Of a stretch of 35,474 nt of DNA, positions 4,094 to 28,045 are shown one piece after another (positions within the stretch are counted from its first letter, which is position 1; every line of letters begins with the position of its first letter). Under the pieces are notes generated by a model that had not been told where the DNA came from, ran no database searches, and saw only the letters and a program-made list of their open reading frames with translations. The position numbers and the translations under genes are program-made. Source of the DNA: an uncultured Nitrospira sp. (lineage in GTDB: Bacteria > Nitrospirota > Nitrospiria > Nitrospirales > Nitrospiraceae); the NCBI GenBank assembly GCA_902500775.1, contig CABVRZ010000033.1:1-35474 (forward strand), given 5' to 3'.

Positions 4094-5824
4094 TTACTGG
4101 TAGTCCTCGTTGAGTGAGTTCAGGAATGCCACAAGAGTGGCAACATCGGTGGTTTTGAGGGCGATACCGTGAAGCTGGTTTGCGCCATTGCGAAGTGTTC
4201 CTGCACGAGCTTGAGCTGAGATGTCGATGTAGAAATCGATCACGTCCTTCAGTGTGTCGAATTGACCGGTATGCATGAACGGAGTGGAGTGTGCTAGATC
4301 GCGCAGGCCTGGAGTCTTGAATCGCGCAATCGCTCGATTCAAGAGGTCGCTTTGAGAGGCAGTACAGGGTTGCTCCCCATCGCAGAGCAGGTTGCGAATC
4401 TTCTCTTGTGGCGTTGGCATGTCGGGATTAGCAAAGGCGTTCCATAGGCCGAGGTCGGTCAAAGTCGTGCCGGCTGAGGGGATGGCTCGGAATCGTTCGC
4501 TGGCTTGCGGATGTTGTTCAGTAGCCGGGAGATCGTCGGTGGTTCGGGTGGCAAGCGTAGGAATGGCCAGGTTCATGAAAGCGCCGTTCCCATGGCCGGG
4601 AATCCCGTCATATTCCTTCTGAGTTGTCCCGGTATTATGGGCCTTGAAATCCGTGAAGTTTGGCGCTGCGTGGCAGGCGATGCAGTTGCCGATGGCGCCT
4701 GCGCTAACCTCAGCTGGAGAAGCCGGAAGGGTTGCCGGTTCTGCGAGAAACATCTTCAAGCCAGCGAGCTCGGTCGCGCCGAACTGGAACGTCTGTGTAT
4801 GGAACTGAAATTGTCCGTTGGGTCGGTTGGGATTAGTCGTGACGAATTGTGGAGTAAAGCCTGGCGCTGTGATGAGCGCTCGCAGTCGTCGGCTGTAGGA
4901 CAGTTCTGACTCATTTGCATCGGGCTGCTGCGGCAGACCGTTGACTGTCAAGAAGATATCGAACGGCGAACGGATCAGCGCTCCGCTCTCTTCGGTCTGT
5001 GAAAACCGGAGTCCGTTAACATAGGCAGCCACCACGCGGACAACGGCGTCGAAAATTTCTTGGTCGGTTCCTGATCCAATGAACGTACGAAATTGAGGCG
5101 GGAGCTGCAACTCTTCAGGGATGTTTGGATTTGTGCCGGTAAACAGAATGCGATAGGAGAGGCCGGTATCCGTCAGATCGAAGGAACCATCATCGTCACG
5201 AACGACGTTAGCAATATGTTTGAGCGCTTGGGCCTTCTCACCTGGTAGCCAGCCGAAATTTCGACCAGTGAAGGTGGCGGCAATCAGCTCCTCCATTGTG
5301 TTGAATTCCCCGTCGAAGTGGAATAGGACCCCACCGGGTCGATCGAGTGCTGCGTTGACGAGCGGAGGCGAATTGCGGACGGCAATAGTCTTGCCGTCCG
5401 CTCGGGCCGGGACGGGGCTGCGACGAGCAAAATCTGCATAGGTCCGCATGCCGCCTCCAGGCGCATCAAGAACGTCGTCGACCAAATGACAGGCACGGCA
5501 ATTCATGGACAACCCCTTGAAGGGACCAGGAGCAATTGGTGCTCCGAGGGTTTTGACAGTGTTGACGACGCTGTCATCTATATTGGGATCGTTGGCATTG
5601 CCTCCGTTGTCCAGGAATATTTTGAAAGCTTGAGCAAATCTAGTTTCCAGAAACAATCGCTCACCGAGTGCCTCTTCAGCCCCAGGCGTTCCGGTATCGG
5701 AGATCGGTGGGGGTGACGTCTGAGTGTCAGAACCGGAGCAGGAGATGAGTCCTGTGAGGAGCATGAATAAAGAGAGGAGGGCAAAGGAGATCTTGAATCG
5801 AGATGAGGTCAGGTGGGGATTCAT
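4094..5824 (-). CDS. Di-haem cytochrome c peroxidase / MauG-family lipoprotein
   Basis: The 576-aa product has a lipoprotein signal ending in Cys29 (GLISCSGS), so it should be anchored in the envelope facing the periplasm. Two c-type haem attachment motifs are present: CRACH at 109-113 and CIACH at 381-385. Later motifs include 'TPGLRDLAHSTPFMHTGQFDTL', a hallmark of the C-terminal half of the di-haem peroxidase/MauG group. Family members reduce H2O2 or carry out related oxidations with electrons from small cytochromes. This one is longer than a classical bacterial peroxidase (about 320-350 aa), with inserts in the first half, so its true substrate is uncertain. I chose the ATG at 5824 because GAAAGGAC lies upstream and the signal peptide begins there. 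An in-frame upstream start would add 19 unlikely residues. Confidence 0.88.
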   Translation of the reverse strand: MNPHLTSSRFKISFALLSLFMLLTGLISCSGSDTQTSPPPISDTGTPGAEEALGERLFLETRFAQAFKIFLDNGGNANDPNIDDSVVNTVKTLGAPIAPGPFKGLSMNCRACHLVDDVLDAPGGGMRTYADFARRSPVPARADGKTIAVRNSPPLVNAALDRPGGVLFHFDGEFNTMEELIAATFTGRNFGWLPGEKAQALKHIANVVRDDDGSFDLTDTGLSYRILFTGTNPNIPEELQLPPQFRTFIGSGTDQEIFDAVVRVVAAYVNGLRFSQTEESGALIRSPFDIFLTVNGLPQQPDANESELSYSRRLRALITAPGFTPQFVTTNPNRPNGQFQFHTQTFQFGATELAGLKMFLAEPATLPASPAEVSAGAIGNCIACHAAPNFTDFKAHNTGTTQKEYDGIPGHGNGAFMNLAIPTLATRTTDDLPATEQHPQASERFRAIPSAGTTLTDLGLWNAFANPDMPTPQEKIRNLLCDGEQPCTASQSDLLNRAIARFKTPGLRDLAHSTPFMHTGQFDTLKDVIDFYIDISAQARAGTLRNGANQLHGIALKTTDVATLVAFLNSLNEDYQ

Positions 5825-5895
5825 GGCGTAGTCAGTCCTTTCATCAGCGTATTGTCTGTTCGGCGTTATTCCAACATCCAAAGCCTAAGCGATCA

Positions 5896-6788: not shown

Positions 6789-7307
6789 CTACGACTCTTG
6801 TGGGCGTTTCCCTCCCATGAGAGGTTGTCCAAGGACCCACATTTCATACAGAGGAACGATCATCATGACGAGAAAACTCAGGGTCATCAGCAAGTCGCCA
6901 GTGAGCATGGAAATGACGAATATGGGGGAGACATAGTTGATGAGCCAGGGAGACACCAGATCAAGCATGACTCCACCAAAACCGCCCCAGGTGACAATGG
7001 CCTTGAGGGTATGGCTGGTATTGGTCAGGTACATCACGTGAATGAGAATCATGAACACGACCGGCATGGTAAAGAGATGAAAGTGGGTGATTTCAGCCAA
7101 CTCGCGAAACGACATGGGTTCTCCAAATGTTGCGTCCGATCCACGATAGTGTTCTGCAATGCCTTGTGGTGATAAACCCGTCATGCTGTGCGCCCAAAAA
7201 AATGAGAAACAAAACCCAACGAACATCAAGAGTAAGAATAAGGTATAGAGCAACCGAATATGCCGATCAGAGTCACGAAGTCTAAATTTCTGGTTAAAGT
7301 TTCGCAT
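6789..7307 (-). CDS. Multi-pass membrane protein with conserved-looking histidines
   Basis: I do not recognise a named family. The 172-aa product has about four membrane segments (roughly 19-39, 78-95, 103-122 and 127-155). Several histidines sit in or next to them: His40, His75, His77, His90 and His99. A set like this can bind haem b, but that is only a suggestion. It directly follows the FMN-binding protein gene and precedes the shared terminator. It may therefore be the membrane electron carrier or partner of that flavoprotein. The start is uncertain. The ATG at 7307 gives a natural basic N-terminus (MRNFNQKF) 25 bases after the previous stop. A TTG at 7343 would overlap the upstream gene by 11 bases and add 12 residues. 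Confidence 0.7.
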   Translation of the reverse strand: MRNFNQKFRLRDSDRHIRLLYTLFLLLMFVGFCFSFFWAHSMTGLSPQGIAEHYRGSDATFGEPMSFRELAEITHFHLFTMPVVFMILIHVMYLTNTSHTLKAIVTWGGFGGVMLDLVSPWLINYVSPIFVISMLTGDLLMTLSFLVMMIVPLYEMWVLGQPLMGGKRPQES

Positions 7308-7332
7308 AGCTGGGACGCGAGGTCCGCTTCGA

Positions 7333-8004
7333 CTAATTGCCAAATATCGACGGGAAAAATCCCTTGTCCTTCTTGGCGGTTACCGTGTCGCTGCCGATCC
7401 CTGCCGGCTTCAGATAAAATTCGTCAACCAGCACCAATGCTCGTTTGATGCCTGCACTCATCGACCGGACTGACATCGTGGCGCCGGAGATATTAATGAT
7501 GTCTTTGTTGATCCGAACTGGGTCAAGAACGGATTTCCCTTCATATTGCGCATTGAATCGCTTCTGCCGAACCTCGCTGCCACGTGCTTCACGAAATACG
7601 AGGAGCTCTACATCGGAAACTATGCCCTTGTTATCCACACCAACCATATAGGTCATAGGTTTGTGTTTGCCGATCGTATTCTGGACGAGTGCATAGCCAT
7701 CGATTTGTGATCCGGTCTCTCCGATATACACCTCAAATGAGTCTTCAGGAAACTTCCAGCCGATCCGTTCCTCGATCAACGACTTTTGTTCTGGATTCAA
7801 CTTGACGGTTTCTTTGCGAACTCGTTCGGACTTTGGAAACATGATTTTGAGGCTTTCTTCCTCGTTCAGATAGACCTCAGCCATGCTCATTTCCTGATCT
7901 GTGAGGAACCGTTTGAGGTCATTGTCCCAAATGCGTTCAGCGCCGAGCACCAGAGTCGGTATCAGGGATAGGGCAATGCAGGAACAAATGAGGCGTGTGG
8001 TCAT
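7333..8004 (-). CDS. Exported FMN-binding domain protein
   Basis: The 223-aa product has a Sec signal peptide (first 21 residues, ending LVLGA) and a C-terminal FMN-binding domain at about 100-195. The key segment is SGATMS at 173-178. In NqrC, RnfG and related proteins, FMN is attached by a phosphoester bond to the Thr of such an SGAT motif, here Thr176. Related domains act as periplasmic electron carriers. The residues between (about 25-95) are not recognised. Its ATG (8002-8004) overlaps the stop of the upstream lipoprotein gene as ATGA, so the two are probably translated together. The likely modifying enzyme is the ApbE protein encoded at 11038-12078. Electron donor and acceptor are not evident. 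Confidence 0.85.
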   Translation of the reverse strand: MTTRLICSCIALSLIPTLVLGAERIWDNDLKRFLTDQEMSMAEVYLNEEESLKIMFPKSERVRKETVKLNPEQKSLIEERIGWKFPEDSFEVYIGETGSQIDGYALVQNTIGKHKPMTYMVGVDNKGIVSDVELLVFREARGSEVRQKRFNAQYEGKSVLDPVRINKDIINISGATMSVRSMSAGIKRALVLVDEFYLKPAGIGSDTVTAKKDKGFFPSIFGN

Positions 8005-8456
8005 GGGATGACCTCGCATCCGTTCTCTTTAATGCGCGTGTTGAGTTTGTTCGTGATCTCTTCCATGACTTCTTCTGAAGGCTCGACCGGCCACCACCTG
8101 GTCGCCTGTTGGGTTGCTCCGCCTCGGGCATGCCAACGCTGCCTGATTTCGAGTACATTCACAAATGATCGTCCATTGTCATTCTTGATGACAACCGTGA
8201 GACGGGCTCGTTCGCGGTTGCCGAATCCCTCTCGCCCGAGGATCCCGTAGGGCTGCTTCTTTCCTTCCATCTCAACCCACCCGGTCTCGATGGTTCCCGC
8301 CATCTTATTTTCCGATGTGATTGCATAGTCCTTCATGGTGTCCAAGGTCGCGTCCCATGCGGTGTTGTAGGGGCAGACAAATGAGTGGTCACGGCCACCA
8401 CTCAATGATGCACAGGCTGTTAACACTAAAAACGGAAGGAAAAGAATTACACGCAT
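8001..8456 (-). CDS. Small lipoprotein of unknown function
   Basis: The 151-aa product has a short lipoprotein signal with Cys15 (LVLTAC), so it should be anchored in the outer or inner membrane. The rest is a single small domain: CPYNTAWDATLDTMKDYAI is followed by beta-strand-rich sequence. This is reminiscent of the small envelope domain that starts with '…d.aWdavl..l…' in several uncharacterised lipoproteins. No catalytic residues are apparent. It lies between the porin gene (60 bases upstream, past a strong hairpin) and the FMN-binding gene, with which it shares an ATGA overlap. It therefore probably works with the flavin cluster. Confidence 0.75.
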   Translation of the reverse strand: MRVILFLPFLVLTACASLSGGRDHSFVCPYNTAWDATLDTMKDYAITSENKMAGTIETGWVEMEGKKQPYGILGREGFGNRERARLTVVIKNDNGRSFVNVLEIRQRWHARGGATQQATRWWPVEPSEEVMEEITNKLNTRIKENGCEVIP

Positions 8457-8480
8457 GAGTTGTTCCTATCCTGTCATGGT

Positions 8481-8510
8481 GGGGGAGGCCGGCTTTTACC
8501 AGCCTCCCCC
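8481..8510. other. Strong hairpin between porin and lipoprotein genes
   Basis: GGGGGAGGC (8481-8489) pairs with GCCTCCCCC (8502-8510). The stem extends by two more G-C pairs after one mismatch, leaving a 6-base loop. There is no T tract on the minus strand. It is more likely an mRNA-stabilising or partial-termination hairpin, lowering expression of the genes after the porin, than a full terminator. Confidence 0.65.
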
Positions 8511-8515
8511 TGCTC

Positions 8516-9997
8516 CTAAAAATACGTGGCTGCTGAAATTACAAATGCACTATCATGAATACGCTGGTCGCCGTTGTTGGGATTGGTTGTCTTCGGCATG
8601 TACTGATAGCTCATCTTGATGACGGCGTCCTCGACCGGACGGTAATTCAGCCCAAACGAGATTTGTTCAATCTCGCCACCATTTTCTCCTTTGTTCGCCA
8701 GGTTCAGATTGACTCGGTCATAGCGAATGACGGCTGTGAAGGTTGAGCCTTCGCCAAACCGTTTTGGAGCAAGTTTCGTCAAGAACGAGGGCATGAAGTG
8801 GTAATTGCCCTGAACATAGAATCCCATCAATCGCTCAGGGGGGCCAGCTAAGGGGTTCAGAGAGAAGGGAGAACCAGTGAGCAACGATCCTGGGGCAAAT
8901 CCTCCAAAGGTATTTCCAGGAATGGCCCGGGAGTTTCCTCTGGCATGTGCCCAGGCTGCTTCACCGATCAGTTCGAAGGGGCCCTTTTGAAGGGTCCAAT
9001 CGACCGCGAAGATGCTAAGCGGATTATAACTCGTCGCAGATTGGTTGCCGAAGTAGCCTGATCCTGCCACTTCCACACCGAGCATGGGGCTGAAGGCCAG
9101 ACGGCCAGACACCGCTTTGCCGTTATTGATGTCGAGTCCGTCATCAGATCCACATTTGCGTTGGCGAGAGTTCTTCGTACCATTGAATTCCGTGACGCGA
9201 GGTTCTCCATCGCCGTTATAACCGCAGGGACCGGTCGTAAAGTACACTTCGTAATCGAGTTTCCCCGTTCGGCCTGGGTAAAATGTGCCGTACAAGCCAG
9301 CACCTGTTTCAGACATAGTCGAGGGAATGACCAGTCGACTGACGATCGGACGATCCGTCAAGTCGTTGAGTGGAGAGTCATGCAAAAGGTTGAACTTGCC
9401 GAGTGGGATGAGGACGATACCTCCTCGTATATTCACCTTTTCATTAACCAGGTAGTCAATATGTGCAAATTCCAGGCTGATTTCCACATCGTTCGTTGCT
9501 CTGATCCCATGTTCGATCTCGAGCTCTGATGCAAATTTGAGATGTTCGGTAATATCAGCATAGATGAACGGGACGAATCGTTGCTGGTCGAATCCATTGG
9601 TGGTTCCACCATCTCGCCCTGATTCAAGCACAGAGTTTCGATGAGCACGATATTGAATGTCGAAGTATCCACCGACGATCGCCTTGGGAAACGAGACGAA
9701 CGGTTTGGCATACACAAGTCGACCTGATCCGCTTGACCCGAAGGATAGTGGATCCTGGCGGTCTGCACGACGTTCCTTCCCGACTTCCGGAAGGGAACCA
9801 ATTCCTGGTTCAGCGGTTGGCACAGTTCCCTCACGGCGTTCGGGGGGCAATTCCCGTCGCTCACGTTCTTGCAGGCGCTTTTCTACTGCCTCATCGACCA
9901 ATTTCCGAATTTCCTCTGGAGTCAAGCTCTCTGCCAGTACCGGCATGGACGGTAAACTGAAGAGTAGAAGAGCCCCGAGGAGTAACCGCATCTTCAT
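8516..9997 (-). CDS. Outer-membrane porin (beta-barrel) with N-terminal coiled coil
   Basis: The 493-aa product has a signal peptide (cleavage near VLAES, residue 22). A charged helical stretch follows (about 23-58, rich in Glu and Arg, e.g. EAVEKRLQERERREL). The long beta-strand-rich domain that follows ends in Tyr-Phe (AATYF), the aromatic C-terminus typical of outer-membrane barrels. Repeated features such as FVPFIYADITEHLKFASELEIEHG and the strands near the end resemble phosphate-selective-porin (OprP/OprO)-like barrels. Solute specificity cannot be read from the sequence. AAGGGAGG lies about six bases before the ATG, a strong ribosome site. It is the first gene of a minus-strand unit continuing to 6789. 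Confidence 0.8.
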   Translation of the reverse strand: MKMRLLLGALLLFSLPSMPVLAESLTPEEIRKLVDEAVEKRLQERERRELPPERREGTVPTAEPGIGSLPEVGKERRADRQDPLSFGSSGSGRLVYAKPFVSFPKAIVGGYFDIQYRAHRNSVLESGRDGGTTNGFDQQRFVPFIYADITEHLKFASELEIEHGIRATNDVEISLEFAHIDYLVNEKVNIRGGIVLIPLGKFNLLHDSPLNDLTDRPIVSRLVIPSTMSETGAGLYGTFYPGRTGKLDYEVYFTTGPCGYNGDGEPRVTEFNGTKNSRQRKCGSDDGLDINNGKAVSGRLAFSPMLGVEVAGSGYFGNQSATSYNPLSIFAVDWTLQKGPFELIGEAAWAHARGNSRAIPGNTFGGFAPGSLLTGSPFSLNPLAGPPERLMGFYVQGNYHFMPSFLTKLAPKRFGEGSTFTAVIRYDRVNLNLANKGENGGEIEQISFGLNYRPVEDAVIKMSYQYMPKTTNPNNGDQRIHDSAFVISAATYF

Positions 9998-10112
9998 CGG
10001 TATCCTCCCTTATAAATGATGTTGTAGTCTGACTCGGGACTCGACGGTCTCTGGTCTTTCGGGTAACTCGTATGGATAGACTCGGTGCGCATGCTTCCTG
10101 TATGAGGTAAGA

Positions 10113-10292
10113 CTAAGTAGAGGCGGTTCCCCAACCTTCGATTGAGGAGAAAGGGATCACGACAATGCGCTTGCATCGCTTACACTTGAGCTCCAGCCCT
10201 TGTCCGCACACTTTGGCGATTAATTGGCCGCACTCGCACCGGGTCTCAAGAGTCTGAGAGCTGTCGGCTATGGAAGCTTTTGCACAGGTCAT
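10113..10292 (-). CDS. Small zinc-ribbon protein, Com-like
   Basis: The product is about 59 aa. It has two zinc knuckles: RCECGQLIAKVCG, and CKRCKRIVVIPF about 15 residues later. This matches the Cys4 ribbon of phage Mu Com, a translational activator, and of many short bacterial relatives that have no phage context. Nucleic-acid binding is therefore inferred. No Mu-like genes are nearby, so the gene is not evidence of a prophage. The start is unsettled: ATG at 10292, or GTG at 10307 adding MARVY. Neither has a good ribosome site. It lies upstream of the porin gene in the same direction and is divergent from the lipoprotein gene at 10424. Confidence 0.65.
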   Translation of the reverse strand: MTCAKASIADSSQTLETRCECGQLIAKVCGQGLELKCKRCKRIVVIPFSSIEGWGTAST

Positions 10293-10411
10293 ATACACAC
10301 GAGCCACTGGTTTAAGTGAAATTGAGAACGATTATTAATATCTCGACCGATGTTCTCCTGTCAAGGGGTTCATGCATGCCGGCGCAATATGTCTTTTGGG
10401 AATGTCTGGCT

Positions 10412-10423
10412 TATAATTTTCTT
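10412..10423 (+). promoter_or_regulatory. Possible -10 box placed for a leaderless transcript
   Basis: A perfect TATAAT (10412-10417) ends six bases before the ATG at 10424. With normal spacing, transcription would start at or next to that ATG, and no Shine-Dalgarno sequence is visible. No good -35 box lies at the usual distance. Confidence 0.35.
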
Positions 10424-11038
10424 ATGAAAACACCAAGTTTATTAAAGAGATTGCTGTGCGGTCTGTTGTTGCTCGGCATATCTGGGTGTGTCACGGTAGT
10501 ATCGTCCCAAGTCGAGCCGGATCAGATAGACGGCAATCTGGTCGTCGGACGAGTTATCACGACCCTGCATGGGGAACGGGCCAGACGGTATTTGCCGCAG
10601 TTGCGGTCGATTGAATTGGAAAATCAAAACACATCACAGCGTTATCAGATTGAGATTGACTCGGGCGATGAATATTTTACGATTGATTTGTTACCTGGGC
10701 GATATCGACTCACCCGAGTCCAGATCAGCGAGGGAGCGTTTAGGTCGATGGCTGATATCTCGGGGACGTTTTCAGTGGATTCCGGAGTCGTCACCTATGT
10801 TGGGACCTGGCGATTTATGGTCGACTCACCGCGTTATGGGAGGATGGTGGTGCTCGCCATGAATACCGATACACAGGACACAGCTGCAATGAAAGATTTT
10901 CTGGTGAAGCGGTATCCATCCGTCAGTGAGCAGCGTTTTCTCTCCCACATACCTGATCCTTTCCGTACTGAGGCTCGTCTCTACGAGGTCATGCCGTATC
11001 CACGCTATCCCAGATATTTCCGTAGGCATTGGTGGTAA
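10424..11038 (+). CDS. Lipoprotein of unknown function next to apbE
   Basis: The 204-aa product has a lipoprotein signal with Cys22 (LLGISGC). The mature part contains a beta-sandwich-like stretch, with 'IELENQNTSQRYQIEIDSG' leading to 'IDLLPGRYRLTRV'. That is the pattern of carboxypeptidase-regulatory-like/Ig-like carrier domains. A Tyr/Arg/Pro-rich tail ends in RRHWW. No enzyme motif is visible. I chose the ATG at 10424 because the lipoprotein signal begins there; a frame extended to 10316 would put 36 odd residues in front. Its stop overlaps the apbE start (TAATG at 11036-11040), so the two genes are probably co-translated. It may localise or assist the flavinylation step. Confidence 0.75.
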   Translation: MKTPSLLKRLLCGLLLLGISGCVTVVSSQVEPDQIDGNLVVGRVITTLHGERARRYLPQLRSIELENQNTSQRYQIEIDSGDEYFTIDLLPGRYRLTRVQISEGAFRSMADISGTFSVDSGVVTYVGTWRFMVDSPRYGRMVVLAMNTDTQDTAAMKDFLVKRYPSVSEQRFLSHIPDPFRTEARLYEVMPYPRYPRYFRRHWW

Positions 11039-12078
11039 TGCTGAGGATGACAATGGCGATCCCGAGGTCGACGGTAGTGCATAGCCTACTCTGTGGTCTT
11101 ATTATGAGTGTGGCGGTTGGGTGCACAACGATGCAGCCGACAGCTCAACCTGGGATAGTTACGCGTACACAGATGCATATGGGCACGTTGGTGACCATCA
11201 CGGCGGTGGGGGCTAACGCGGACAGTGGTCATAAGGCAGTGCAGGTAGGTTTTGATGAGATCAAGCGGCTCGAACGGCTCCTAAGCACCTGGCGAGCTGA
11301 CAGTGAACTTTCCCATGTGAATTCAGAGGCAGGGCATCGGCCAGTACAAGTGAGCCAGGAGACCGTAGAGTTGGTGACTCGAGCCCTTGAAATGGTAGAG
11401 CTGACGGCAGGTGGGTTCAATATCGCTCTTGGTCCGGCTATCGACATCTGGAGTGTGACTGAGCGGGAGCACATTCCAGATCAGGAAGAGTTGCAACGAC
11501 TGAAACCTCTGGTGGATTGGAGGGATGTTCAGGTCAATAGAAAGACAGACACGATTTATCTTCCTCGGAAGGGCATGCGGATTGATATTGGCGGAATTGG
11601 GAAGGGGTACGCGGCGGATCGGGCAGTAGAGGAGATGAAACGAACAGGGGCCACGGGTGGAGTGGTCGCCCTCTCGGGGGACATTAAGACGTTTGGTGTA
11701 CTCCCAGATCGAAAGGGGTTTCCGGTCGGGATTCGACATCCGCGTGAAGAAGGAACGGTGATGGCCGTTCTCGATTTACACGATGAAGCGATTTCGACAG
11801 CTGGTGACTACGAGCGATTCTTTGAGCGTGACGGAATTCGGTACCATCATATTCTCGATTCTCAAACCCTTCAACCAGCTCGTGGATGCCAGAGTGTGAC
11901 CGTAATCGCCAAGGAGGGGACTGTGGCTGACGGATTGGATACGGGGATTTTTGTATTGGGACCAGAGCGGGGGATGGCGCTCGTGGAACATTTGCCTGGT
12001 GTAGAGGCGATCATTGTCGATGCAAATGGGACTATGATGGTGTCCTCAGGGCTTCGTGATCGGTTGCGCGCGCCATGA
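11038..12078 (+). CDS. apbE: FAD:protein FMN transferase (ApbE), lipoprotein
   Basis: This enzyme moves FMN from FAD onto a Ser/Thr of an exported target protein. The 346-aa product is a lipoprotein (Cys29 in SVAVGC) acting in the periplasm. Family landmarks are present in order: MGTLVTITAVG; LERLLSTWRADSELSHVN; FNIALGPAIDIWSV; MRIDIGGIGKGYAADRAV; VVALSGDIKTFG; RYHHILDSQT; and TVADGLDTGIFVLG. The last holds the Asp-rich Mg/FAD-binding region. Length is normal for ApbE. The start is taken at the ATG overlapping the upstream stop; a TTG at 11029 and ATGs at 11047 and 11053 are alternatives. The obvious substrate is the SGAT-bearing FMN-binding protein at 7333-8004, about 3 kb away on the opposite strand. 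Confidence 0.93.
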   Translation: MLRMTMAIPRSTVVHSLLCGLIMSVAVGCTTMQPTAQPGIVTRTQMHMGTLVTITAVGANADSGHKAVQVGFDEIKRLERLLSTWRADSELSHVNSEAGHRPVQVSQETVELVTRALEMVELTAGGFNIALGPAIDIWSVTEREHIPDQEELQRLKPLVDWRDVQVNRKTDTIYLPRKGMRIDIGGIGKGYAADRAVEEMKRTGATGGVVALSGDIKTFGVLPDRKGFPVGIRHPREEGTVMAVLDLHDEAISTAGDYERFFERDGIRYHHILDSQTLQPARGCQSVTVIAKEGTVADGLDTGIFVLGPERGMALVEHLPGVEAIIVDANGTMMVSSGLRDRLRAP

Positions 12079-12092
12079 GGTGACGTAGCTGC

Positions 12093-12959
12093 TTATCGGG
12101 CCATCTTTAAATCATAACTGATCGCGAATTTTACCGATATCTGAGGGCGTTCAAGCAGACGAACAAGTTTCACTGGCGGGCCGTTTCTGACGTCTTCCAA
12201 CGCAACCTGGTCCAACGTTGCATTCCCCGAACCCTTGGCGATGTGCACATCGCTTAGCGAGCCATCGGCGTGTAAGATCGCGACCAGTGTGACTCTCCCC
12301 TCGATTCCCTCAGCACGTAATGTTGCCGGGTAGCGTTTGTCGAGACCCTCAATCCACTGCGCCATAAGAGTGGCGAGCCATCCATAGTCGACACTGGTCG
12401 ATCGCTGTGTACCAGCTGATGCCACCTGACTGTTCGATGCAGAGGAAGCGTCAGAAACGGGGGGGGTATCTGGCGGTGATACGGGTGATTCACTCATATT
12501 GGTATGAGGAACGACTGTGTGCTCAGGCGATAGCTCCGGCTGAGATGTTGAGGAAGTTGGTAGCGGAGAGATCGACGGCGGTGTCATAGGCTCATTGGGA
12601 AGCGGTTCTATTTGCTGAGGTGGTGGAGCGAGTTCGGTTATTGGTACAGTGGGTGAACTGGTAGCCTGTTGAACCGGTGGTCCTGCTGCATGCGTACGTT
12701 TGGCTGGAAGTGTGGGTGATGGGTGTCGCAACGTCGCTGGGACCGGTTGTTCCTGAGGTGCTGCAGCTTGTCCTGAAAACAGCGCAGGCGTCTCCATCGC
12801 CACGTCCCATTGGAAGGGGGCTTCCTGTGGGGCTAGATGGATATGCTGGGAAAACATGATGGCGGCAATGACTGCTCCGCCATGCAACAGGCAAGAGAGC
12901 AGCCAGCCGGTTGCCATGGTGTTGGACGCATTCGAGGTACGCTGTGGGATCCGTTGCAT
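12093..12959 (-). CDS. tonB: TonB energy transducer
   Basis: The 288-aa product spans the periplasm and passes proton-motive energy to outer-membrane receptors for iron complexes. An N-terminal membrane anchor (about 16-38, GWLLSCLLHGGAVIAAIMF) carries the conserved His in the SxxxH arrangement (SCLLH). A long Pro-, Ser- and Thr-rich linker (about 60-185) follows. The C-terminal TonB domain (about 195-288) contains YPATLRAEGIEGRVTLVAIL, DGSLSDVHIAKGSGNATLDQVAL and RPQISVKFAISYDL. It is the last gene of exbB-exbD-tonB; its ATG overlaps the exbD stop (TAATG). Its 3' end converges on apbE with a 14-base gap and no visible terminator. No TonB-dependent receptor gene is present in the window. Confidence 0.92.
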   Translation of the reverse strand: MQRIPQRTSNASNTMATGWLLSCLLHGGAVIAAIMFSQHIHLAPQEAPFQWDVAMETPALFSGQAAAPQEQPVPATLRHPSPTLPAKRTHAAGPPVQQATSSPTVPITELAPPPQQIEPLPNEPMTPPSISPLPTSSTSQPELSPEHTVVPHTNMSESPVSPPDTPPVSDASSASNSQVASAGTQRSTSVDYGWLATLMAQWIEGLDKRYPATLRAEGIEGRVTLVAILHADGSLSDVHIAKGSGNATLDQVALEDVRNGPPVKLVRLLERPQISVKFAISYDLKMAR

Positions 12960-13333
12960 TACAGCCGAATGACCTCTAGGCTCACCTGCTGAAAACCCAA
13001 ACTGCGGATCTCATCGACAAGGGCCACGAATTTTTCCAGTACGATCACTTTATCAGCACGGACAAGCACGGCTGACTCGCGTGGTTGTGTGCTGAGCGCA
13101 GCTGAGAGGCCTTGATCTGCAACGGGTGAGTCGTTGACAAAGAGCTTCCCTTCCCCTGTCACTGACACCACGATGGGCACGTCCTTCCGATCGCCGACCT
13201 CTTTCGCCTTGGCCAAATTGACGGGAATCTGGCCGGTGCTGATGAATGTCGCGGTCGTCAGGACGATGACGAGCAGGACCAACATGACATCTACCAGCGG
13301 GATGACGTTGATTTGATCAATGTTCCGATCCAT
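12959..13333 (-). CDS. exbD: ExbD/TolR biopolymer transport protein
   Basis: The 124-aa product is the single-span partner of ExbB in the proton-driven TonB motor. The N-terminal segment DQINVIPLVDVMLVLLVIVLTT carries the essential membrane Asp (VDVMLVLL, Asp15 region). A periplasmic domain with the pattern '…VVSVTGEGKLFVNDSPV…' follows, then the 'LVRADKVIVLEKFVALVDEIRSLGFQQVSL' type ending. Length is typical. Its start overlaps the exbB stop by 17 bases and its stop overlaps the tonB start, so the three genes form one translational unit. Confidence 0.93.
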   Translation of the reverse strand: MDRNIDQINVIPLVDVMLVLLVIVLTTATFISTGQIPVNLAKAKEVGDRKDVPIVVSVTGEGKLFVNDSPVADQGLSAALSTQPRESAVLVRADKVIVLEKFVALVDEIRSLGFQQVSLEVIRL

Positions 13334-13748
13334 GTTGTGCCTTATATTCGGTCAGAAGTTCGGTGACGCGACGGCGGAGTAGGTTATTCATCACGACGCA
13401 AGGAATCGCGACCAATAGACCGACGGCGGTCGCCTTCAGTGCCAGGCTTAACCCAATCATAATCGTGTTGACTGCCATGGTTCCAGACGTTCCCATCGTA
13501 TGGAACGTCAACATGATACCAAGGACCGTTCCAAGGAGGCCAATATAGGGGGCGTTGGCGGCAACAGTCCCAATGATCACCAGTCGTTGTGTGAGGGTAA
13601 TTTCCAGCAGCTGCGCGTTGGAAAACTGGGAGAAGTTAATACGTTTATAGAAGAGCCACCGTTCGATGGCCACCGCCACGCACCACACACTGAGCACCAG
13701 TAAGAGGCCAATAACCCCGTAATCAATGACATCTTTCAATGCGTCCAT
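13317..13748 (-). CDS. exbB: ExbB/TolQ/MotA-family proton channel, short type
   Basis: The 143-aa product has three membrane helices (about 10-30, 58-82 and 97-125). It shows the ExbB signature TVAANAPYIGLLGTVLGIMLTF followed by LSLALKATAVGLLVAIPCVV. It forms the proton channel with ExbD. It belongs to the short ExbB type (about 140 aa; classical ExbB is about 240), which usually partners small ExbD/TonB sets in chemolithotrophs and epsilon-proteobacteria. AAGGAG seven bases before the ATG at 13748 fixes the start. It lies 109 bases after fbpC in the same direction, so it may be read from the iron-transport operon or from its own promoter in that gap. Confidence 0.92.
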   Translation of the reverse strand: MDALKDVIDYGVIGLLLVLSVWCVAVAIERWLFYKRINFSQFSNAQLLEITLTQRLVIIGTVAANAPYIGLLGTVLGIMLTFHTMGTSGTMAVNTIMIGLSLALKATAVGLLVAIPCVVMNNLLRRRVTELLTEYKAQHGSEH

Positions 13749-13857: not shown

Positions 13858-15003
13858 TCAGTTTCTGCCTGTGTCGCTAGGGGCGAGGGGGTGTTCCGTC
13901 TGAAACAGCACGGTATGGGTTGCTGAAACACGGAGTTCGACAGACGTGCCTTCTTGGTAGACGCTGGTTGAGCTCTCACTACTATGGACAATCTGACCGG
14001 AAGGAAGTTGAACAGTGTACAAATTTTCAGATCCGCGGAACTGCCTCGCCACGATTTGTGGTGCGGCAGATTTATTGGGGAGGAGATGCACGTCGTCTGG
14101 GCGAATCATGACAGCAACATGGTCTCCTTCCGAACCATTGATCGTATTGGGGAACTCTCCCAGTTCGGTGTGAACGATGCCCCGTTGAATCTGGCCAGGA
14201 ATGAAGTCGGCTTGACCGACAAAGTCGGCGACGAACCGTGTGGCAGGAAGATGGTAAATCATTTCCGGAGAGTCCATTTGTTCGAGCACGCCCTGGTTCA
14301 GCACGGCAATACGATCGGCCATCGCAAAGGCCTCGTCATGGTCATGCGTGACCATGATGGTGGTGGTGTTCATCTGTCGTAACAGGGCGTGGACCTCCTG
14401 GCGCATGCGACTGGCCATATCGGGGTCGAGGTTGCTGAACGGCTCATCGAGGAGCAGTACAACCGGACTCTGTACTAACGCGCGTGCCAGGGCCACACGT
14501 TGCTGCTGCCCGCCGGATAGTTCGTGGGGGTATCGGTGGTCGAATCCTTCCAAGCCGGTGAGCCGCAGCATGTCCTGGACTCGCGATGTCCGCTCTGTTT
14601 TGGGTAGATGGCGAAGGCCGAAGGCGATGTTGTCCGCCACGCGTAGGTGAGGAAAGAGCGCGTACTCTTGGAACACCATGCCTACTCGGCGGGCTTCGGT
14701 GGGCAGGGTTTCTAAGGGGGAAGAGACTACTTGACCCGATAGAACAATTTGTCCAGCCTGTACCGGCTCCAGTCCGGCAATGGCCCGCAGAACGGTGGTT
14801 TTCCCACAGCCGGACGGTCCAAGCAGGCAGAGGATCTCGCCTTCTCTGGCGGAGAATGAAATGTCGCAAACTGCCGGTCGATTTGCGTCATAGGCACAGG
14901 AGACGGAGCGAAGCTCCAGGATCGATGCCGTCTGAGCGAAGCGGTGGGTGCGGCTTTGGGAGTGGTCGGCATCCATCGGTCTGGGCCATGCTGGTGCATT
15001 CAT
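13858..15003 (-). CDS. fbpC: Ferric iron ABC transporter ATP-binding protein
   Basis: The 381-aa product hydrolyses ATP to drive uptake through FbpB. Visible motifs are Walker A GPSGCGKTT at 62-70, the Q-loop (MVFQEYALFP), the signature LSGGQQQRVALARAL, Walker B VVLLLDEPF with SNLD, and the switch His in TTIMVTHDHDEA. A C-terminal TOBE-like regulatory domain (about 265-375) follows. The whole matches the Fe3+/spermidine-type importer ATPases. The first 28 residues before ILELRSVSC are non-conserved, so the real start could be the inner ATG at 14976. It lies nine bases after the fbpB stop, in one operon. Confidence 0.9.
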   Translation of the reverse strand: MNAPAWPRPMDADHSQSRTHRFAQTASILELRSVSCAYDANRPAVCDISFSAREGEILCLLGPSGCGKTTVLRAIAGLEPVQAGQIVLSGQVVSSPLETLPTEARRVGMVFQEYALFPHLRVADNIAFGLRHLPKTERTSRVQDMLRLTGLEGFDHRYPHELSGGQQQRVALARALVQSPVVLLLDEPFSNLDPDMASRMRQEVHALLRQMNTTTIMVTHDHDEAFAMADRIAVLNQGVLEQMDSPEMIYHLPATRFVADFVGQADFIPGQIQRGIVHTELGEFPNTINGSEGDHVAVMIRPDDVHLLPNKSAAPQIVARQFRGSENLYTVQLPSGQIVHSSESSTSVYQEGTSVELRVSATHTVLFQTEHPLAPSDTGRN

Positions 15004-15012
15004 AAGAGTTTC

Positions 15013-16596
15013 TTATGCCGCGCGCCAATCGCGGGAGATCAACAAGGCGAGGGCGGGTAGACCGACAAGCACAATCAAGAGAGCTGAGGGAGCCGCCAGT
15101 TGGTAGTACTCTTCACTCGCCTCGAGCCAAACGCGGATGGCCAGCGTGTCAAACCCCACCGGGCGGAGCAAGAGTGTGGCCGGAAGTTCTTTCATGGTCT
15201 GAAGAAAGATGAGCACCCATGCGACGATGACGCCGTTACGTATGAGTGGCAGCGTGACATGTCGCACGGTTTCGCGAGCGCTCAGGCCTAACGTACGTGC
15301 CACTTCTTCCAGGTTCGGCGTAATTTGCTGGATCGATGGTTCCAGCGATTGGAGGCCAGCCGGGAGAAAATGGAGCACATAGGCAAGGATCAACACCAGC
15401 ACGGTTCCATAGAAGAACGGCACAAGTTTGAGGCAGAGGACCAGCACGGCGAGTGCGGCTACTGGTCCTGGTAACACGTAGCCGGCATAGGCGGCCTGGA
15501 GGCAACCGGTGTTGAGCCACGAGGGTTTCCGACTGGCAAGATAGGCCAACGGCAGTCCGGCCAGCACAGCGGCCGTGGCAGCCAGAGTCGCAAGCAAGGC
15601 GCTGTTCCACACAAAGTCGAAGAATCGTGCATCGAGCGTGGCGAGGGCATCAGGAGAAAAACTCCATGCAATCAGGAGAACCACCGGGACACCGAAGGCC
15701 GCTCCCACGATCGCGGCTAGAGACGCGGTCAGGCCTACGGTTTGGAACCAATTGCAACGGATTCGCTGCGGGGCGCGGTAACGACCGGCGGTTTGGTAGA
15801 AACGACTCTTGTGACGAAACCAGCGCTCAGTTATCAAAAAGAGGAGTGCAAGAACGACCAGCAACACACTCAAGATACTAGCAGCCTGGTTGTCTAACTG
15901 TCCCGTCATTTGTTGAAACACGGCATAGGTCAAGGTTTGGTAGCGCAACAGCGATACGGCGCCGAAGTCGGAGACCACGTAGAGGATGACAAGCGCGACA
16001 CCAGCAACGATCGACGGTCGCAACAGCGGGAGGGTAACAGCGAAGATTCTCCGCAAGAGAGAGGCACCACAAGTACGGGCAACTTCTTCAAACGACACGT
16101 TTAGGTTCAGGAGCGCGTTGCGGGTGAGTAGGTAGATGAACGGGAACGTATCAAGCGCCATGACTACGGTGACGCCTAAGAAACTTTGGGGCGAGAAGAT
16201 TCTCGCCTGAGGGCCGGCCAGTATTTGCCAGAATTGCTCAACCGGACCACCGAATCCCAAGAGGTAATTGAAGATGTAAGCAGACACGTACGTCGGCATG
16301 GCCAGTGGAAGGACGAGGGCAACTTCCCAGAGCCGGCGTCCAGGAAACTCAAATCGAGTGACGATCCATGCGGTCGAGACACCCAGACCAAGCGCGAGGA
16401 GTGCAACAGCACCAGCCAAGGCACTCGTGTTCCAGAGGAGCTCAGGTACACGAGTCGTCCAAAGTCGATACCAGACGTCTGAATCGGCCGAGAAGGCCAG
16501 GGCCATGATATAGATCAATGGGAGGAGAGTCAGCGCCGCGCTGGCTACCGCAGCCAGTTGGAGAGATGAGAGGGTTGATGAGCGTACGGCAATCAC
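15013..16596 (-). CDS. fbpB: Ferric iron ABC transporter permease (fused double domain)
   Basis: The 527-aa product is an inner-membrane protein with about twelve helices. It consists of two homologous permease halves, the FbpB layout in which one chain makes the whole channel. Each half carries the cytoplasmic EAA loop that docks on the ATPase: EEVARTCGASLLRRIFAVTLP in the first half and EEVARTLGLSARETVRHVTLP in the second. It starts at a GTG (16596) preceded by GAGAGAG. Spacing is 13 bases from fbpA and nine bases to fbpC. It transports Fe3+ delivered by FbpA into the cytoplasm. Confidence 0.92.
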   Translation of the reverse strand: MIAVRSSTLSSLQLAAVASAALTLLPLIYIMALAFSADSDVWYRLWTTRVPELLWNTSALAGAVALLALGLGVSTAWIVTRFEFPGRRLWEVALVLPLAMPTYVSAYIFNYLLGFGGPVEQFWQILAGPQARIFSPQSFLGVTVVMALDTFPFIYLLTRNALLNLNVSFEEVARTCGASLLRRIFAVTLPLLRPSIVAGVALVILYVVSDFGAVSLLRYQTLTYAVFQQMTGQLDNQAASILSVLLVVLALLFLITERWFRHKSRFYQTAGRYRAPQRIRCNWFQTVGLTASLAAIVGAAFGVPVVLLIAWSFSPDALATLDARFFDFVWNSALLATLAATAAVLAGLPLAYLASRKPSWLNTGCLQAAYAGYVLPGPVAALAVLVLCLKLVPFFYGTVLVLILAYVLHFLPAGLQSLEPSIQQITPNLEEVARTLGLSARETVRHVTLPLIRNGVIVAWVLIFLQTMKELPATLLLRPVGFDTLAIRVWLEASEEYYQLAAPSALLIVLVGLPALALLISRDWRAA

Positions 16597-16609
16597 AGCT
16601 CTCTCGGTG

Positions 16610-17677
16610 TTACCGCATTCCCACTTGTTCGATCAGTCGCAGGGTGGGTGCTCGGAGTTCGGCAAGTTTGGCCAACGGCACCATGGCTGCCCGAAAACTC
16701 TTTCGCTCGACAAGCGCGGGATCGGCTTGAACCTCGGGATGGAGCGGGTACTCCTTGTCGAGGTCGGCGAACATCTTTTGACCAGCCTGTGCCACGAGGA
16801 ATTCGACGAGCAGTTTAGCCTCTTCCATGCGAGGCGTATGTTTCAAGACCCCGATACCAGCCACGTTCATAATGGCCCCCATCCCACCTTCTTGTTGGTC
16901 AGGCATCAAGACAGCGAGCGGCGCAGTCGGTTGTGTGGAGAGATGTCGATAGACGTAGTAGTGATTGACGATCCCCAGCGCGACTTGACCCTTGGCAACC
17001 GCCTCGACGATCTGGGAACTTTTTTGGTAGACCTGCGTGCCGGCATTGTCACGAAGCCCCTCGAGGAATTTCTTGGTGCGATCATCACCGAGACTGGCCC
17101 GGATCACGGAGACGCCTGCTTGCAGATACTCGCTGCCGGCGTTTGGAATGGCGACTTTCCCCTTCCACGTTGGGTCGGCCAAGTCTAGCAACGACTTGAT
17201 CTGGTCCGGCTTCACGATTGCGGTGTTGTAGGTGATGATCCAGAATCGGCCTGACAAGCCGATCCAGCTGTTATCCGTTGCGCGGAATTGAGGAGGAATT
17301 GCGCGCTCAACCTCTCGCATGCTCAGCGGGCGAAACAGTCCGGCCGTACGGGCGAGTTCTAAACTCCCAGCGTCATTCGTGATAAAGACGTCGGCTGGGC
17401 TTCGGTCGCCCTCCGCTTTCATTCGATTCACCAGTTCCGTCGTGCCGGATGACAACAAGGCGATGTGTATGTTGGTCTTCCGGGTGAACTCATCCAGAAC
17501 CGGTTTAATCAATCGTTCCGCTCGGCCCGAATAGACGGTCAGCTTATCCGCCGCAGTTGCGACAGTTGCGAGAATCATTGATAAGAACAGGACTGAACAG
17601 GCAACTGTGATACCGATGAGTCTGCAGTAAGGGATGCGAGGAGTGGTATGAGGGGTCTTGTGACAGGAACACGTCAT
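16610..17677 (-). CDS. fbpA: Ferric iron-binding periplasmic protein
   Basis: The 355-aa product captures free Fe3+ in the periplasm and hands it to FbpB. A signal peptide ends near residue 43 (TVATAAD). The mature protein begins KLTVYSGRAERLIKPVLDEF, typical of this transferrin-like binding-protein family. Later stretches DVFITNDAG, LADPTWKGKVAIPNAGS, and GIVNHYYVYR with its paired tyrosines are in the region that supplies iron ligands. I chose the ATG at 17677, since AAAGG lies ten bases upstream; a TTG at 17698 is possible but unsupported. It is the first gene of fbpABC and has a Fur-box-like palindrome 42-56 bases upstream. Confidence 0.92.
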   Translation of the reverse strand: MTCSCHKTPHTTPRIPYCRLIGITVACSVLFLSMILATVATAADKLTVYSGRAERLIKPVLDEFTRKTNIHIALLSSGTTELVNRMKAEGDRSPADVFITNDAGSLELARTAGLFRPLSMREVERAIPPQFRATDNSWIGLSGRFWIITYNTAIVKPDQIKSLLDLADPTWKGKVAIPNAGSEYLQAGVSVIRASLGDDRTKKFLEGLRDNAGTQVYQKSSQIVEAVAKGQVALGIVNHYYVYRHLSTQPTAPLAVLMPDQQEGGMGAIMNVAGIGVLKHTPRMEEAKLLVEFLVAQAGQKMFADLDKEYPLHPEVQADPALVERKSFRAAMVPLAKLAELRAPTLRLIEQVGMR

Positions 17678-17718
17678 GATGGACCTTTGTACAATCAAGA
17701 TGCGGAGAGATTTGAAAT

Positions 17719-17760: not shown

Positions 17761-18192
17761 TCAATGACGGCAACGGGAGCAGAGTCCGTAGAGTTCGAGC
17801 CGGTGGGTGGTAATGGTAAAGCCGTTCTTGGTCGCAACTTCTTCTTGCAGGCGTTCGATATCGCAGTTTTCAAATTCGACAATTTTGCCGCAGCCGGTGC
17901 AGATAAGATGGTCGTGATGGCCCTTATGAGACACGTTATCGTACTGGGTCTGTGTCCCAAAGTGTCGAGCTTGAGCCAAACCCGCTTCGCAAAACAGATT
18001 GAGGGTCCGGTAAATGGTTGCCAGTCCGAGATGGGGATCTTTGCGGGCCAATTGATGGTACATTTCCTCGGCCGTAATGTGCTCTTGTCTCAGAAAGGCG
18101 TCGAGGATCAGCTCCCGCTGGCGAGTGAATTTGAGTTGGTGTTTCCCAAGGTGCTCTTTCAGCACGCCCATTTCTCTAGCATGTTTAGACAT
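17761..18192 (-). CDS. fur: Ferric uptake regulator (Fur family)
   Basis: The 143-aa product is a metal-sensing DNA-binding repressor. The N-terminal winged helix includes FTRQRELILDAFLRQEHITAEE and LGLATIYRTLNLFCEAGL, the latter being the recognition helix pattern. The dimerisation half carries GHHDHLICTGCGKIVEFE, with the His-rich regulatory site and the first structural CxxC. It ends in LCSRCRH with the second CxxC. The sequence cannot separate Fur from PerR or Zur with certainty. The iron-transport operon next door and the Fur-like box between them favour Fur. The ATG at 18192 follows GGGAGG at a long spacing of 14 bases, and that site can fold into a hairpin. Confidence 0.9.
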   Translation of the reverse strand: MSKHAREMGVLKEHLGKHQLKFTRQRELILDAFLRQEHITAEEMYHQLARKDPHLGLATIYRTLNLFCEAGLAQARHFGTQTQYDNVSHKGHHDHLICTGCGKIVEFENCDIERLQEEVATKNGFTITTHRLELYGLCSRCRH

Positions 18193-21590: not shown

Positions 21591-24500
21591 ATGCCAAAAA
21601 TTTTTATCAGTCACTCCAGTAAGGATAATGCGAAGGCGCTCGCTGTTGTGCAGTGGTTGGAGCAAAACGGCTGGACGGATACCTTCCTGGACTTTAGAGA
21701 CCTTGCCGCTGGAGAACTGTGGCAAGACGCATTGAAAAATGCTGCGGATCGGTGTGAGGCGATTCTGTTGTTGGTGTCACTAGCCTGGCAGGAGTCAAAG
21801 TGGTGTCAGGATGAATTCCAGCATGCGCAGCGTCTGTGCAAGACTATTTGTCTACTGATTATTGAACCTATTGCAATTAAATCTCTTTCTCTGGAGGTCA
21901 CGGCTAAATGGCAGCTTTGTGACTTGGTGACAGGTGATGATCAACAATGCTTTGAAGTTGCTCATCAAAAAGTTCCCAATACCGTGGTGTCTCTGTCTGG
22001 CGCTGGACTAAGGAGTTTGAAGCAGGGACTTCTGAAGGCAGGACTCGATCCCTCGGTTTTTCCCTACGATCCTACCCGTGGGCCCTATCGTGGGCTTAGA
22101 GCGCTAGAAGCCGAAGATGCAGGGGTGTTCTTCGGGCGAGAAGCTCCGCTCATTCGAGGCTTAGATATGCTACGACGGATGACGGACGAATGTGAGCATC
22201 TCTTTGTCATTTTGGGTGCGTCGGGAGCAGGGAAGTCATCTTTTTTGCGTGCCGGCCTTTGGCCACGACTCAAGCGAGATGAGCGGCATTTCCTTCCCTT
22301 GCCGGTCATTCGACCTGAAAGGGCTGCCATCAGCGGGCAAACTGGTCTTATGAAGAGTCTTGAAAAGACATTTCGTGAATTCAAAATAGAAAAAGCCCGG
22401 GCGACGTTATGTGCGACTTTGGCAAAGCCGGAAGGCCTGGTTGAACTCGTTGTCGAATTACAGGCAACTGCTCAAAAAATGCTAGGCCCGGGGGCGGTTG
22501 AGCCAACCATTGTCATCGCTATTGATCAAGCCGAAGAACTCTTTAGATCAGGTAATAGTGATGAGGCCACTCAAATACTCGATCAGCTCGGCGTACTCAT
22601 TGGTCAAACTGGAAGTGCGCACCCAGAAATGCCTGTACCGCGCGTCATTGTGATCATGGCAATACGCTCAGATTCGTACGAGGAGTTACAGACGGCTGCG
22701 GCATTAAAAGGACTTCGCCAGACCCCATTCAGTCTGCCACCACTTGCTCTAGCCGAGTACAAAATGGTGATAGAAGGCCCTGCTGCACGTGCTACGGCAG
22801 CAGGACAAACACTCACCGTAGAGCCAGCACTAACCGAGCAGCTGTTGCGAGATGCGGAAGGTGCAGACGCATTACCGCTGCTAGCCTTTGTTCTGGAAAA
22901 GCTGTTGGTCAGACACGGATCAGATGGAGATTTGCTTCTGAAAGAATACCATGCGCTGGGGGGGCTCCAAGGATCCATTGAGGCAGCAGTGACCCAAGCA
23001 TTCAACGACCCGGAGAAGAATCCAACTATTCCCGCTGACGAGACTGTACAGCGCATGCTCTTACAGCAGGCATTCCCCTCGCTTGTCACGCTCGATCAAG
23101 ATTCAGAAAAGCCAAAGAGGCTTGTGGCGACGTGGGCAACCTTGCCCACAGAAATCCAACCACTCTTGGAGCGACTAGTTGAGGCACGGTTGCTCACGAA
23201 AGACCGTCGAAAAGTGGCGGATGGAGAAGAAGAGGTGGTTGTAGAAGTGACGCATGAGGCCTTGTTGCGTCAATGGGGGATCCTTACAACATGGCTCAAA
23301 CTGGATGGAGCCAACGTAAAGTTGGTTGATTCCGTTCGGCGAGCCACTGCCGAGTGGCGCAAGGCGCAACATGTTGAGAAGTCGGAGATTGAAACCTGGT
23401 TGATCCATGATGGCGAGGCTCTCGCAGATGCGGAGCGACTCCTGAGCTGTCGCGATTACGATAGTCGGTTTGGTGCAGATGAACGAGACTATCTCAAGGC
23501 CTGTCGGGAAAAGGTTCAAGCAGCGCGAGCGGAACGTGTGGCACAACTGACTCGCATTGCAAGAGCACAGGAGTGGACCAAGGTGTTGCTTGGAGCTATT
23601 GCGATCGTTCTTGTTGTGGCAGGGGTCTTGATTATCAAGCAAGCAAGAGAATTACAGAGACAGACATCACGAGTATATGCGTCGGTCGCCAAGTCGATGG
23701 GAGCTGAAGGGAGATATGATCAGGCATTACGAATGGGTGTCTTGGCTCTGCAGAACACAGATTTGTTGGAGCGGGTTGAACAAGAAGCGGTTGAAGCAGA
23801 GTTGTCACGCCTATCCTATATGTCTGCCCAGATTAGCAAGATTCATGGTCCTGGGGAGGTGGTTACGGGGATGTTCAGTGCGGATAGAAAACAAGTTGTA
23901 ACAACGTCAGAAGACAACATTGCTCGTGTATGGGACGTTAAGACAGGGACGGAATTGGTTGCGCTTCCCCATGATGATAAGGTGCGGGCAGCGACGTTTA
24001 GTCCTGCTGGTCGACGCTTGGTAACTGCATCAGCGGATAAGACCGCTCGGGTGTGGGATGTCGAGACAGGGAAGAAGATTGCCACCTTGCCCCATGGCGA
24101 GGAGGTGGAGATGGCGACCCTCAGCTTTGATGGGAAACAGGTGGTGACGGCATCAGGGGATAAGACGGCTCGGGTGTGGGATATTGAGACAGGGATGGAA
24201 CTGGTCGTTTTGCCCCATGAAGACAAGGTAAGGGCTGCAACATTTAGCTCTGATGGGAAACAGGTGCTGACGGTCTCCTGGGACAATACGGTTCGAGTTT
24301 GGATTGTAGAGACTCAAAAGGTGCAGGCAATCCTGCGTCATGGTGTTCCAGTGGCGGCAGCGGCATTTAGCCCAGATGGGCGACAGGTCGTGACGGTTTC
24401 GTGGGTTGAGAACTCAGCTCAAGTGTGGGACGTTAAGAGGGAGAAGGTGGTTGCGAATTTGCAGCATGACGATACGGTGGAGGCGGCGACGTTCAGTCCA

Positions 24501-25709: not shown

Positions 25710-25779
25710 GAAGTGTGATCGCACCCTCTTTGTATCATATAGAAGCCAAGCTGGCTGATTTTACCGGGAACAAGTTCTT

Positions 25780-27756: not shown

Positions 27757-27772
27757 CCTGTAAGGATTACCT

Positions 27773-27788
27773 GAATCCATTTCGATAC
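27773..27788 (+). repeat. 16-bp element GAATC-N6-GATAC, copy 3
   Basis: The sequence GAATCCATTTCGATAC differs from copy 2 at one base. It lies 16 bases after the stop of the TIR-like/SLOG gene. Confidence 0.65.
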
Positions 27789-27794
27789 AGGGGT

Positions 27795-28003: not shown

Positions 28004-28045
28004 CTCTGACAAGTCGTACACGTGAGTTGGAGAGAGGAGGGGAGG

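Follow-up and report, generated by a model that had tools for sequence, protein, structure and literature searches.

A conserved flavinylation and porin module within a predicted Fur-controlled iron island of Nitrospira

A stretch of 35,474 nucleotides from an uncultured Nitrospira sp. (assembly GCA_902500775.1, contig CABVRZ010000033.1, forward strand; hereafter the window) carries a module of six genes that encode a membrane protein (MEM), an exported FMN-binding protein (FMN protein), two lipoproteins (LP1 and LP2), a porin (POR) and the flavin transferase ApbE. A model's earlier interpretation of the letters alone (the sequence-only reading) had proposed that these genes form a flavin-based electron route across the envelope of an ammonia oxidiser. 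All six are open frames where that reading had placed them. It had overlooked a small Cys4 protein, a Fur-box-like site and the gene for Fur. The module is part of an iron island composed of the porin operon, ApbE, TonB-ExbBD, an FbpABC-like Fe(III) importer and Fur, with the following features.

6789..7307, minus strand: MEM, four-helix membrane protein, predicted to be cytochrome b-like (AlphaFold model and family alignment)
7333..8004, minus strand: FMN protein, exported FMN_bind (RnfG-like) protein (PF04205)
7477..7488, minus strand: SGAT flavinylation motif, residues 173-176 of the FMN protein
8001..8456, minus strand: LP1, lipoprotein with a DUF3576 match (PF12100, 26.3 bits, cut-off 25) and a lipobox-like LTAC
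8516..9997, minus strand: POR, an N-terminal helix followed by a 16-strand OprO/OprP-like porin (structure model and its matches)
10113..10292, minus strand: 59-residue Cys4 (zinc-ribbon-like) protein, first frame past the promoter with the Fur-box-like site
10318..10342, no strand assigned: Fur-box-like 25-mer
10337..10364, minus strand: sigma-70-like promoter (TTGACA-16-GATATT) directed towards the porin operon
10424..11038, plus strand: LP2, lipoprotein with a lipobox-like ISGC
11041..12078, plus strand (open frame from 11029): ApbE, FAD:protein FMN transferase (PF02424)
12093..13748, minus strand: TonB, ExbD and ExbB (TonB_C match for TonB; order kept in relatives)
13858..17698, minus strand: FbpC-FbpB-FbpA-like iron ABC importer (ABC_tran, permease, PDB relatives of FbpA)
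17761..18192, minus strand: Fur, the only match to PF01475 in the genome

Both flavin-related domains score above their Pfam cut-offs, with 34.2 bits for FMN_bind (cut-off 22) and 277.2 bits for ApbE (cut-off 25.6). ExbD and ExbB are putative, being named for the likeness of their sequences to these proteins. The lipobox-like sites were found with a simple lipobox pattern, which gives no match in ApbE.

MEM was found by protein search in 41 of 59 genomes of the genus, G027 being counted for a weak, longer paralogue only. In the phylum, 150 of 395 genomes gave a match to MEM relatives, paralogues included, in a profile search. De-duplication by MEM DNA reduced 121 loci to 105 distinct ones, of which 83 extend 6.5 kb on the porin side; gene order was counted in these, and the 22 shorter loci were left out. 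MEM adjoins the FMN protein on the same strand in 83 of the 83. LP1, POR and a divergent ApbE are each kept in 82, LP2 in 40 (by BLAST), ExbD in 71, ExbB and FbpC in 70 and TonB in 65, followed by FbpB (58), FbpA (18) and Fur (12), figures that are limited by the ends of the loci. This conservation of gene order is far beyond chance, and the sequence-only reading, which had staked its proposal on the genes staying together, was right on this point. The module is also present in Ca. Nitrospira defluvii (FP929003.1), a nitrite oxidiser, and throughout the order, whereas the amoB-bearing locus L248 lacks it. Thus, the suggested link to ammonia oxidation is not upheld.

The motif SGAT corresponds to residues 173-176 of the FMN protein, counting from the ATG at 8004, and ends with Thr176, as had been claimed. 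Among 84 FMN frames, 62 have SGAT, 21 have TGAT and one has neither, so that the motif is kept in 83, the second point on which the earlier proposal depended. The threonine of the motif is invariant across 13 aligned sequences, with identities down to 26%. With PF04205 above its cut-off and an [S/T]GA[S/T] site, the protein is a predicted FMN_bind-type substrate of ApbE. RnfG is found among its PDB sequence matches and, like NqrC, shares with it the FMN_bind domain and the S/T-G-A-T site. However, the NCBIfam RnfG models match below their cut-offs, and no other Rnf or Nqr gene was seen in the cluster. In sister lineages, ApbE and FMN_bind form a single protein of about 500 residues, as checked by Pfam in five loci (L078, L079, L081, L082 and L213). 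A pattern scan found fused frames in 8 of 9 loci, 7 of them with RRR or RRQ, a twin-arginine motif, separating the two domains; in L216, only RRL is found there. Six of these frames are located as follows.

L078, 7498-9000: fused ApbE-FMN_bind frame
L079, 5110-6630: fused ApbE-FMN_bind frame
L080, 7943-9463: fused ApbE-FMN_bind frame
L081, 8395-9903: fused ApbE-FMN_bind frame
L082, 9232-10755: fused ApbE-FMN_bind frame
L213, 8630-10168: fused ApbE-FMN_bind frame

Because the motif and the neighbourhood are kept and the two domains are fused in sister lineages, it is very likely that ApbE flavinylates the FMN protein, a pairing that the sequence-only reading had already put forward. The six fused frames listed above carry the twin-arginine motif between their domains and show no obvious signal ahead of ApbE. 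On these grounds, it is possible that in the fusion lineages the flavin is loaded in the cytoplasm and the protein is then exported by the Tat system.

The 25-mer at 10318-10342 reads GAAATTGAGAACGATTATTAATATC and agrees, within the window, at up to 14 of 19 positions with the E. coli-type Fur consensus. It is found with at least 20 of 25 identical positions in 78 of the 83 loci, in 74 of these between POR and ApbE, and in 91 of the 105 once the short loci are counted. Across these 91, the core columns hold 1.2-2.0 bits, as compared with about 0.1-0.4 for most of the flanks, with values rising to 0.8 immediately downstream. At a distance of 16 bases, a second block, TGTCAAG, is conserved; it corresponds to the -35 element (TTGACA) of the minus-strand promoter, the -10 element of which (GATATT) sits within the 25-mer. 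As judged from the sequence, the elements are arranged as in a repressed promoter, which points towards the gene of the Cys4 protein and the porin operon. Fur itself, of which the genome has a single gene, is encoded inside the same island. A small protein with the Cys4 motif is encoded in 95 of 101 distinct MEM loci. An assignment to the Com-type zinc ribbons (PF10122) was rejected, the Cys4 protein of the window giving no match at E<=0.1 and a distant relative reaching 15.2 bits for a cut-off of 22.9.

The importer of the island also points to iron. The closest PDB relatives of FbpA are Fe(3+)-binding proteins (7li0, E 3.1e-50, with tandem tyrosines YY aligned on YY), and FbpA can be described as a relative of ferric-binding proteins and a predicted metal binder. 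In the first distant loci (L078-L083 and L085), Fur stands beside the module in 7 of 7. The importer itself varies: FTR1 is found in L081 and L213, FeoB in L085 and an FbpABC-like system in the order and in L082. That the module remains constant while the iron importers change is the strongest argument for iron assimilation, and we regard an iron role of the module as highly likely. FeoB was considered as the importer of the genus and discarded, as none of 39 genomes gave a match above the cut-off. Elsewhere in the genome (G000:C45:3267-3965), a protein of about 690 residues with an FTR1 domain is encoded, and FTR1 matches occur in 20 of 39 genomes of the genus.

Genomes devoid of the module are also informative. 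Fourteen genomes of the genus seemed to lack MEM; in one of them (G393) the gene is masked by a run of N and was counted as present, which leaves 13. An FMN orthologue was found in none of the 13, a weak match in G009 (23%, E 4e-4) being counted as absent, and FbpA is kept in 11. Eleven MEM-negative loci (L245-L255) retain TonB-ExbD-ExbB-FbpC-FbpB-FbpA-Fur, and 8 of them encode, between the HD gene and TonB, a complete TonB-dependent receptor, with both Plug and barrel scoring over cut-off. The other three (L245, L254 and L255, the last with a partial receptor) stop at a contig edge or close to one. In a quick tree of FbpC with 47 rows, which included the eight receptor loci and left these three out, the module and receptor states require 3 changes, and a topology that keeps the eight receptor loci in one group is rejected (p-AU 2.7e-52). 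The Cys4 protein is found beside the receptor in 7 of the 8 receptor loci (L246-L252) as well; it therefore belongs to both versions of the locus.

These receptors bring in the possibility that the module is a ferri-siderophore reductase like FoxB or HiuB, working for TonB-dependent receptors encoded elsewhere. The flavin pair would then strip iron from siderophores brought in by these receptors, the porin would be incidental and the adjacent TonB-ExbBD would energise the receptors. HiuB offers a precedent (PMC12424826), the genes for TonB, ExbD and ExbB are found beside the module in 65-71 of the 83 loci, and three loci hold a receptor as well. However, the eight loci with the receptor in the slot are without the module and the window has no receptor of that family; we consider this explanation unlikely. 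A Fur-box-like control would also suit an iron-sparing role, where a flavin path replaces a periplasmic cytochrome c path under iron shortage and has no part in uptake, and a substitution of flavin for haem has been proposed (PMC8238504). Such redox maintenance would leave the porin, the exchange of importers and the receptor in the slot unexplained, which makes it very improbable.

The AlphaFold model of MEM (pLDDT 87.7) has four long helices (15-43, 67-93, 99-125 and 128-157), and a short additional helix separates the first from the second. The four spans and the histidines 40, 75, 77, 90 and 99 highlighted by the sequence-only reading are all there, together with His16 and His53. The expected conservation of the membrane histidines stands for most of them: H40, H75, H77 and H90, as well as H53, are present in 101 of 101 distinct Nitrospirales MEM sequences, whereas H99 is kept in 48. 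In the wider family (29 aligned members), E72, H75, H77 and H90 are invariant, these three histidines being the only ones. MEM falls in no Pfam or NCBIfam family. When the 29 members were compared with Pfam at E<=1, 11 families were returned, none of them NapH-, MsrQ-, PepSY-like, DsbD, NQR/RNF-like or DUF4405. Structural matches by VIA to the helical bundles of cytochrome oxidase subunits (Z at most 7.9) are within the range of common helical arrangements; two PDB sequence matches (E 0.024 and 0.24) were judged to be due to chance.

According to the positive-inside rule, the N-terminus of MEM would be inside, which would place H75 and H77 towards the periplasmic end of helix 2 and H90 towards the cytoplasmic one. 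As the three histidines are on one helix, haem binding would need a homodimer, as proposed for FezC (PMC10979944). MEM is probably a homodimeric b-type protein with two haems, for which H75/H77 on the periplasmic side and H90 on the cytoplasmic side would provide ligands. Paralogues of about 250 residues that share the HxH helix were found in L050, L051, L084, L086, L088 and L089. They carry CxxCH in the loop that joins the first two helices, which would face the periplasm, and c-type cytochromes adjoin them; this neighbourhood suggests that electron transfer is the trade of the MEM superfamily. Outer-membrane-like proteins with CxxCH near their N-terminus lie beside the paralogue in L050, L051 and L086, as does a small cytochrome c in L050 and L051.

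The model of POR (pLDDT 73) is a 16-stranded barrel. OprO and OprP are its best structural matches (Z 27.4, rmsd 3.2-3.4 over 312-319 residues); POR shares with them the barrel and differs by its low identity (13-17%) and by its position in an iron island rather than among phosphate genes. A Porin_O_P match at E<=0.01 is found in 17 of 30 POR relatives. In six loci (L039, L041, L093 and L047-L049), POR is present in two forms that have diverged, with about 80% and 44% identity to that of the window, and LP1 or the FMN protein is doubled in some of them.

The combination, within one operon, of an outer-membrane barrel with an FMN_bind protein and a histidine-bearing membrane protein speaks for the flavin electron route across the envelope that the sequence-only reading had proposed, serving respiration or extracellular electron transfer, and the CxxCH-bearing paralogues of MEM beside c-type cytochromes speak in the same direction. 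However, a CxxCH haem motif is found in none of MEM, FMN protein, LP1, POR, LP2 and ApbE, and the barrel is of the OprO/OprP type, so that a porin-cytochrome conduit is not supported. The Fur-box-like promoter, the iron importers and the receptor found in the slot in relatives also stand against it. Because of the neighbourhood and the promoter, iron assimilation is preferred to an electron conduit, for which we see little chance.

Our preferred interpretation, with a probability of about 0.62, is that of a Fur-controlled iron-assimilation module, where ferric chelates enter via the porin and electrons from MEM reach the FMN protein, thereby freeing iron. The reductase mechanism, taken as a separate part, seems rather probable. 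From the gene content and order, the motif, the promoter and its box, the fusions, the exchange of importers and the receptor in the slot, all of them read in the DNA, we infer Fur binding, flavinylation, haem, an electron donor, iron reduction and a cargo for POR. When iron is scarce, Fur would leave the box at 10318-10342, and derepression would lead to synthesis of the products of the porin operon (Cys4 protein, POR, LP1, FMN protein and MEM) and of lp2-apbE. POR would let small ferric chelates into the periplasm and ApbE would put FMN on Thr176 of the FMN protein. MEM would draw electrons from the membrane (quinol) pool and hand them to this FMN. Once reduced, the FMN would convert the chelated Fe(III), and the iron would be released to the adjacent FbpABC-like importer.

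It should be noted that several observations weigh against this scheme. The importer of the window is of the Fe(III) type, so that a reductase upstream of it needs release and recapture of the iron. Any Fe(II) set free would need to be oxidised again or captured in that state; FutA-type proteins bind both iron states. Among the distant loci L209-L222, some of which end at contig edges, Fur is seen in 5 of 14 (L209, L210, L213, L216 and L221), and no iron gene is visible in either L219 or L220, which argues against a universal iron link. Even when up to 3 mismatches are allowed, the genome holds no second copy of the 25-mer, and a looser Fur pattern occurs 19 times genome-wide against 15 times for the control, without excess; thus, a wider Fur regulon is not seen. 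A conserved Fur site ahead of FbpA was also looked for and rejected, the best candidates being weak and uneven (10-14/19). Concerning haem in MEM, the protein has no Pfam match and Foldseek finds no solved structure at E<=0.001. Finally, 3 of the 105 MEM loci also hold a receptor of the same family, that of L035 adjoining ApbE; module and receptor are thus not strict alternatives. A simple swap between them is ruled out by these loci and by comparison of L249 with L046, where the receptor is beyond the HD gene.

A more detailed version of the preferred interpretation can be offered tentatively. MEM may represent a new carrier class, a four-helix homodimeric cytochrome b feeding a periplasmic covalent flavin. 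With POR, it might form a reductive iron route doing the work of a TonB-dependent receptor, one Fur-controlled chromosomal slot being occupied by either of them depending on the Nitrospira, and the sister fusions might be loaded with flavin in cis in the cytoplasm and exported by Tat.

Several described systems resemble the module. Flavinylation and iron-transporter genes were reported to co-localise, and five classes of membrane carriers were distinguished (PMC8238504). The PepSY-, MsrQ- and P19-associated clusters of that study have in common with the module ApbE, an FMN_bind-type substrate, a membrane electron carrier and an iron transporter or a link to Fur. However, MEM is outside their Pfam membrane families, the porin replaces a receptor, and the transporter is FbpABC-like, FTR1 or FeoB, not VIT1. 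DUF4405 and FezC, also added to the carriers, are likewise small membrane proteins having few invariant histidines and flavinylation or iron genes adjacent to them (PMC10979944). DUF4405 has six helices where MEM has four, no Pfam match connects the two, and haem in MEM is a prediction. With FoxB and HiuB (PMC12424826), the module would share a reduction of ferric iron in the periplasm that is under Fur regulation and linked to TonB-dependent uptake; it differs by having no detected PepSY domain, a separate FMN protein and usually no receptor in the locus. The iron genes of Ca. N. defluvii have been listed (PMC7005843). In the sections of these four papers available to us, the module is not described, and the word Nitrospira is absent from the main text, supplements aside, of PMC8238504 and PMC10979944. 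Our literature search found no work joining flavinylation or ApbE with Nitrospira, or Nitrospira with FMN-binding and porin, and none combining at least four of the five terms porin, flavinylated, iron, TonB-dependent and FMN-binding domain.

Nitrospira are major nitrifiers with a high iron demand in their main enzymes, yet the literature that was found says little about how this iron is acquired. A conserved module, a Fur-box-like promoter, a Pfam-less membrane family and an apparent exchange with a receptor provide an account of iron acquisition that can be tested directly, for an order whose members are difficult to cultivate, and add a candidate class to the flavinylation-linked carriers.

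Two further observations concern the neighbourhood. A di-haem MauG/MbnH-like protein with two CxxCH is encoded at 4094-5881 of the window, and such a gene often lies beside the HD gene and the module (54 of 98 loci, repeats still included). At the other end, from 21591 to 33405, TIR-like/WD-repeat, caspase-like and CHAT-like proteins were recognised by eye, in what looks like a defence or signalling cluster.

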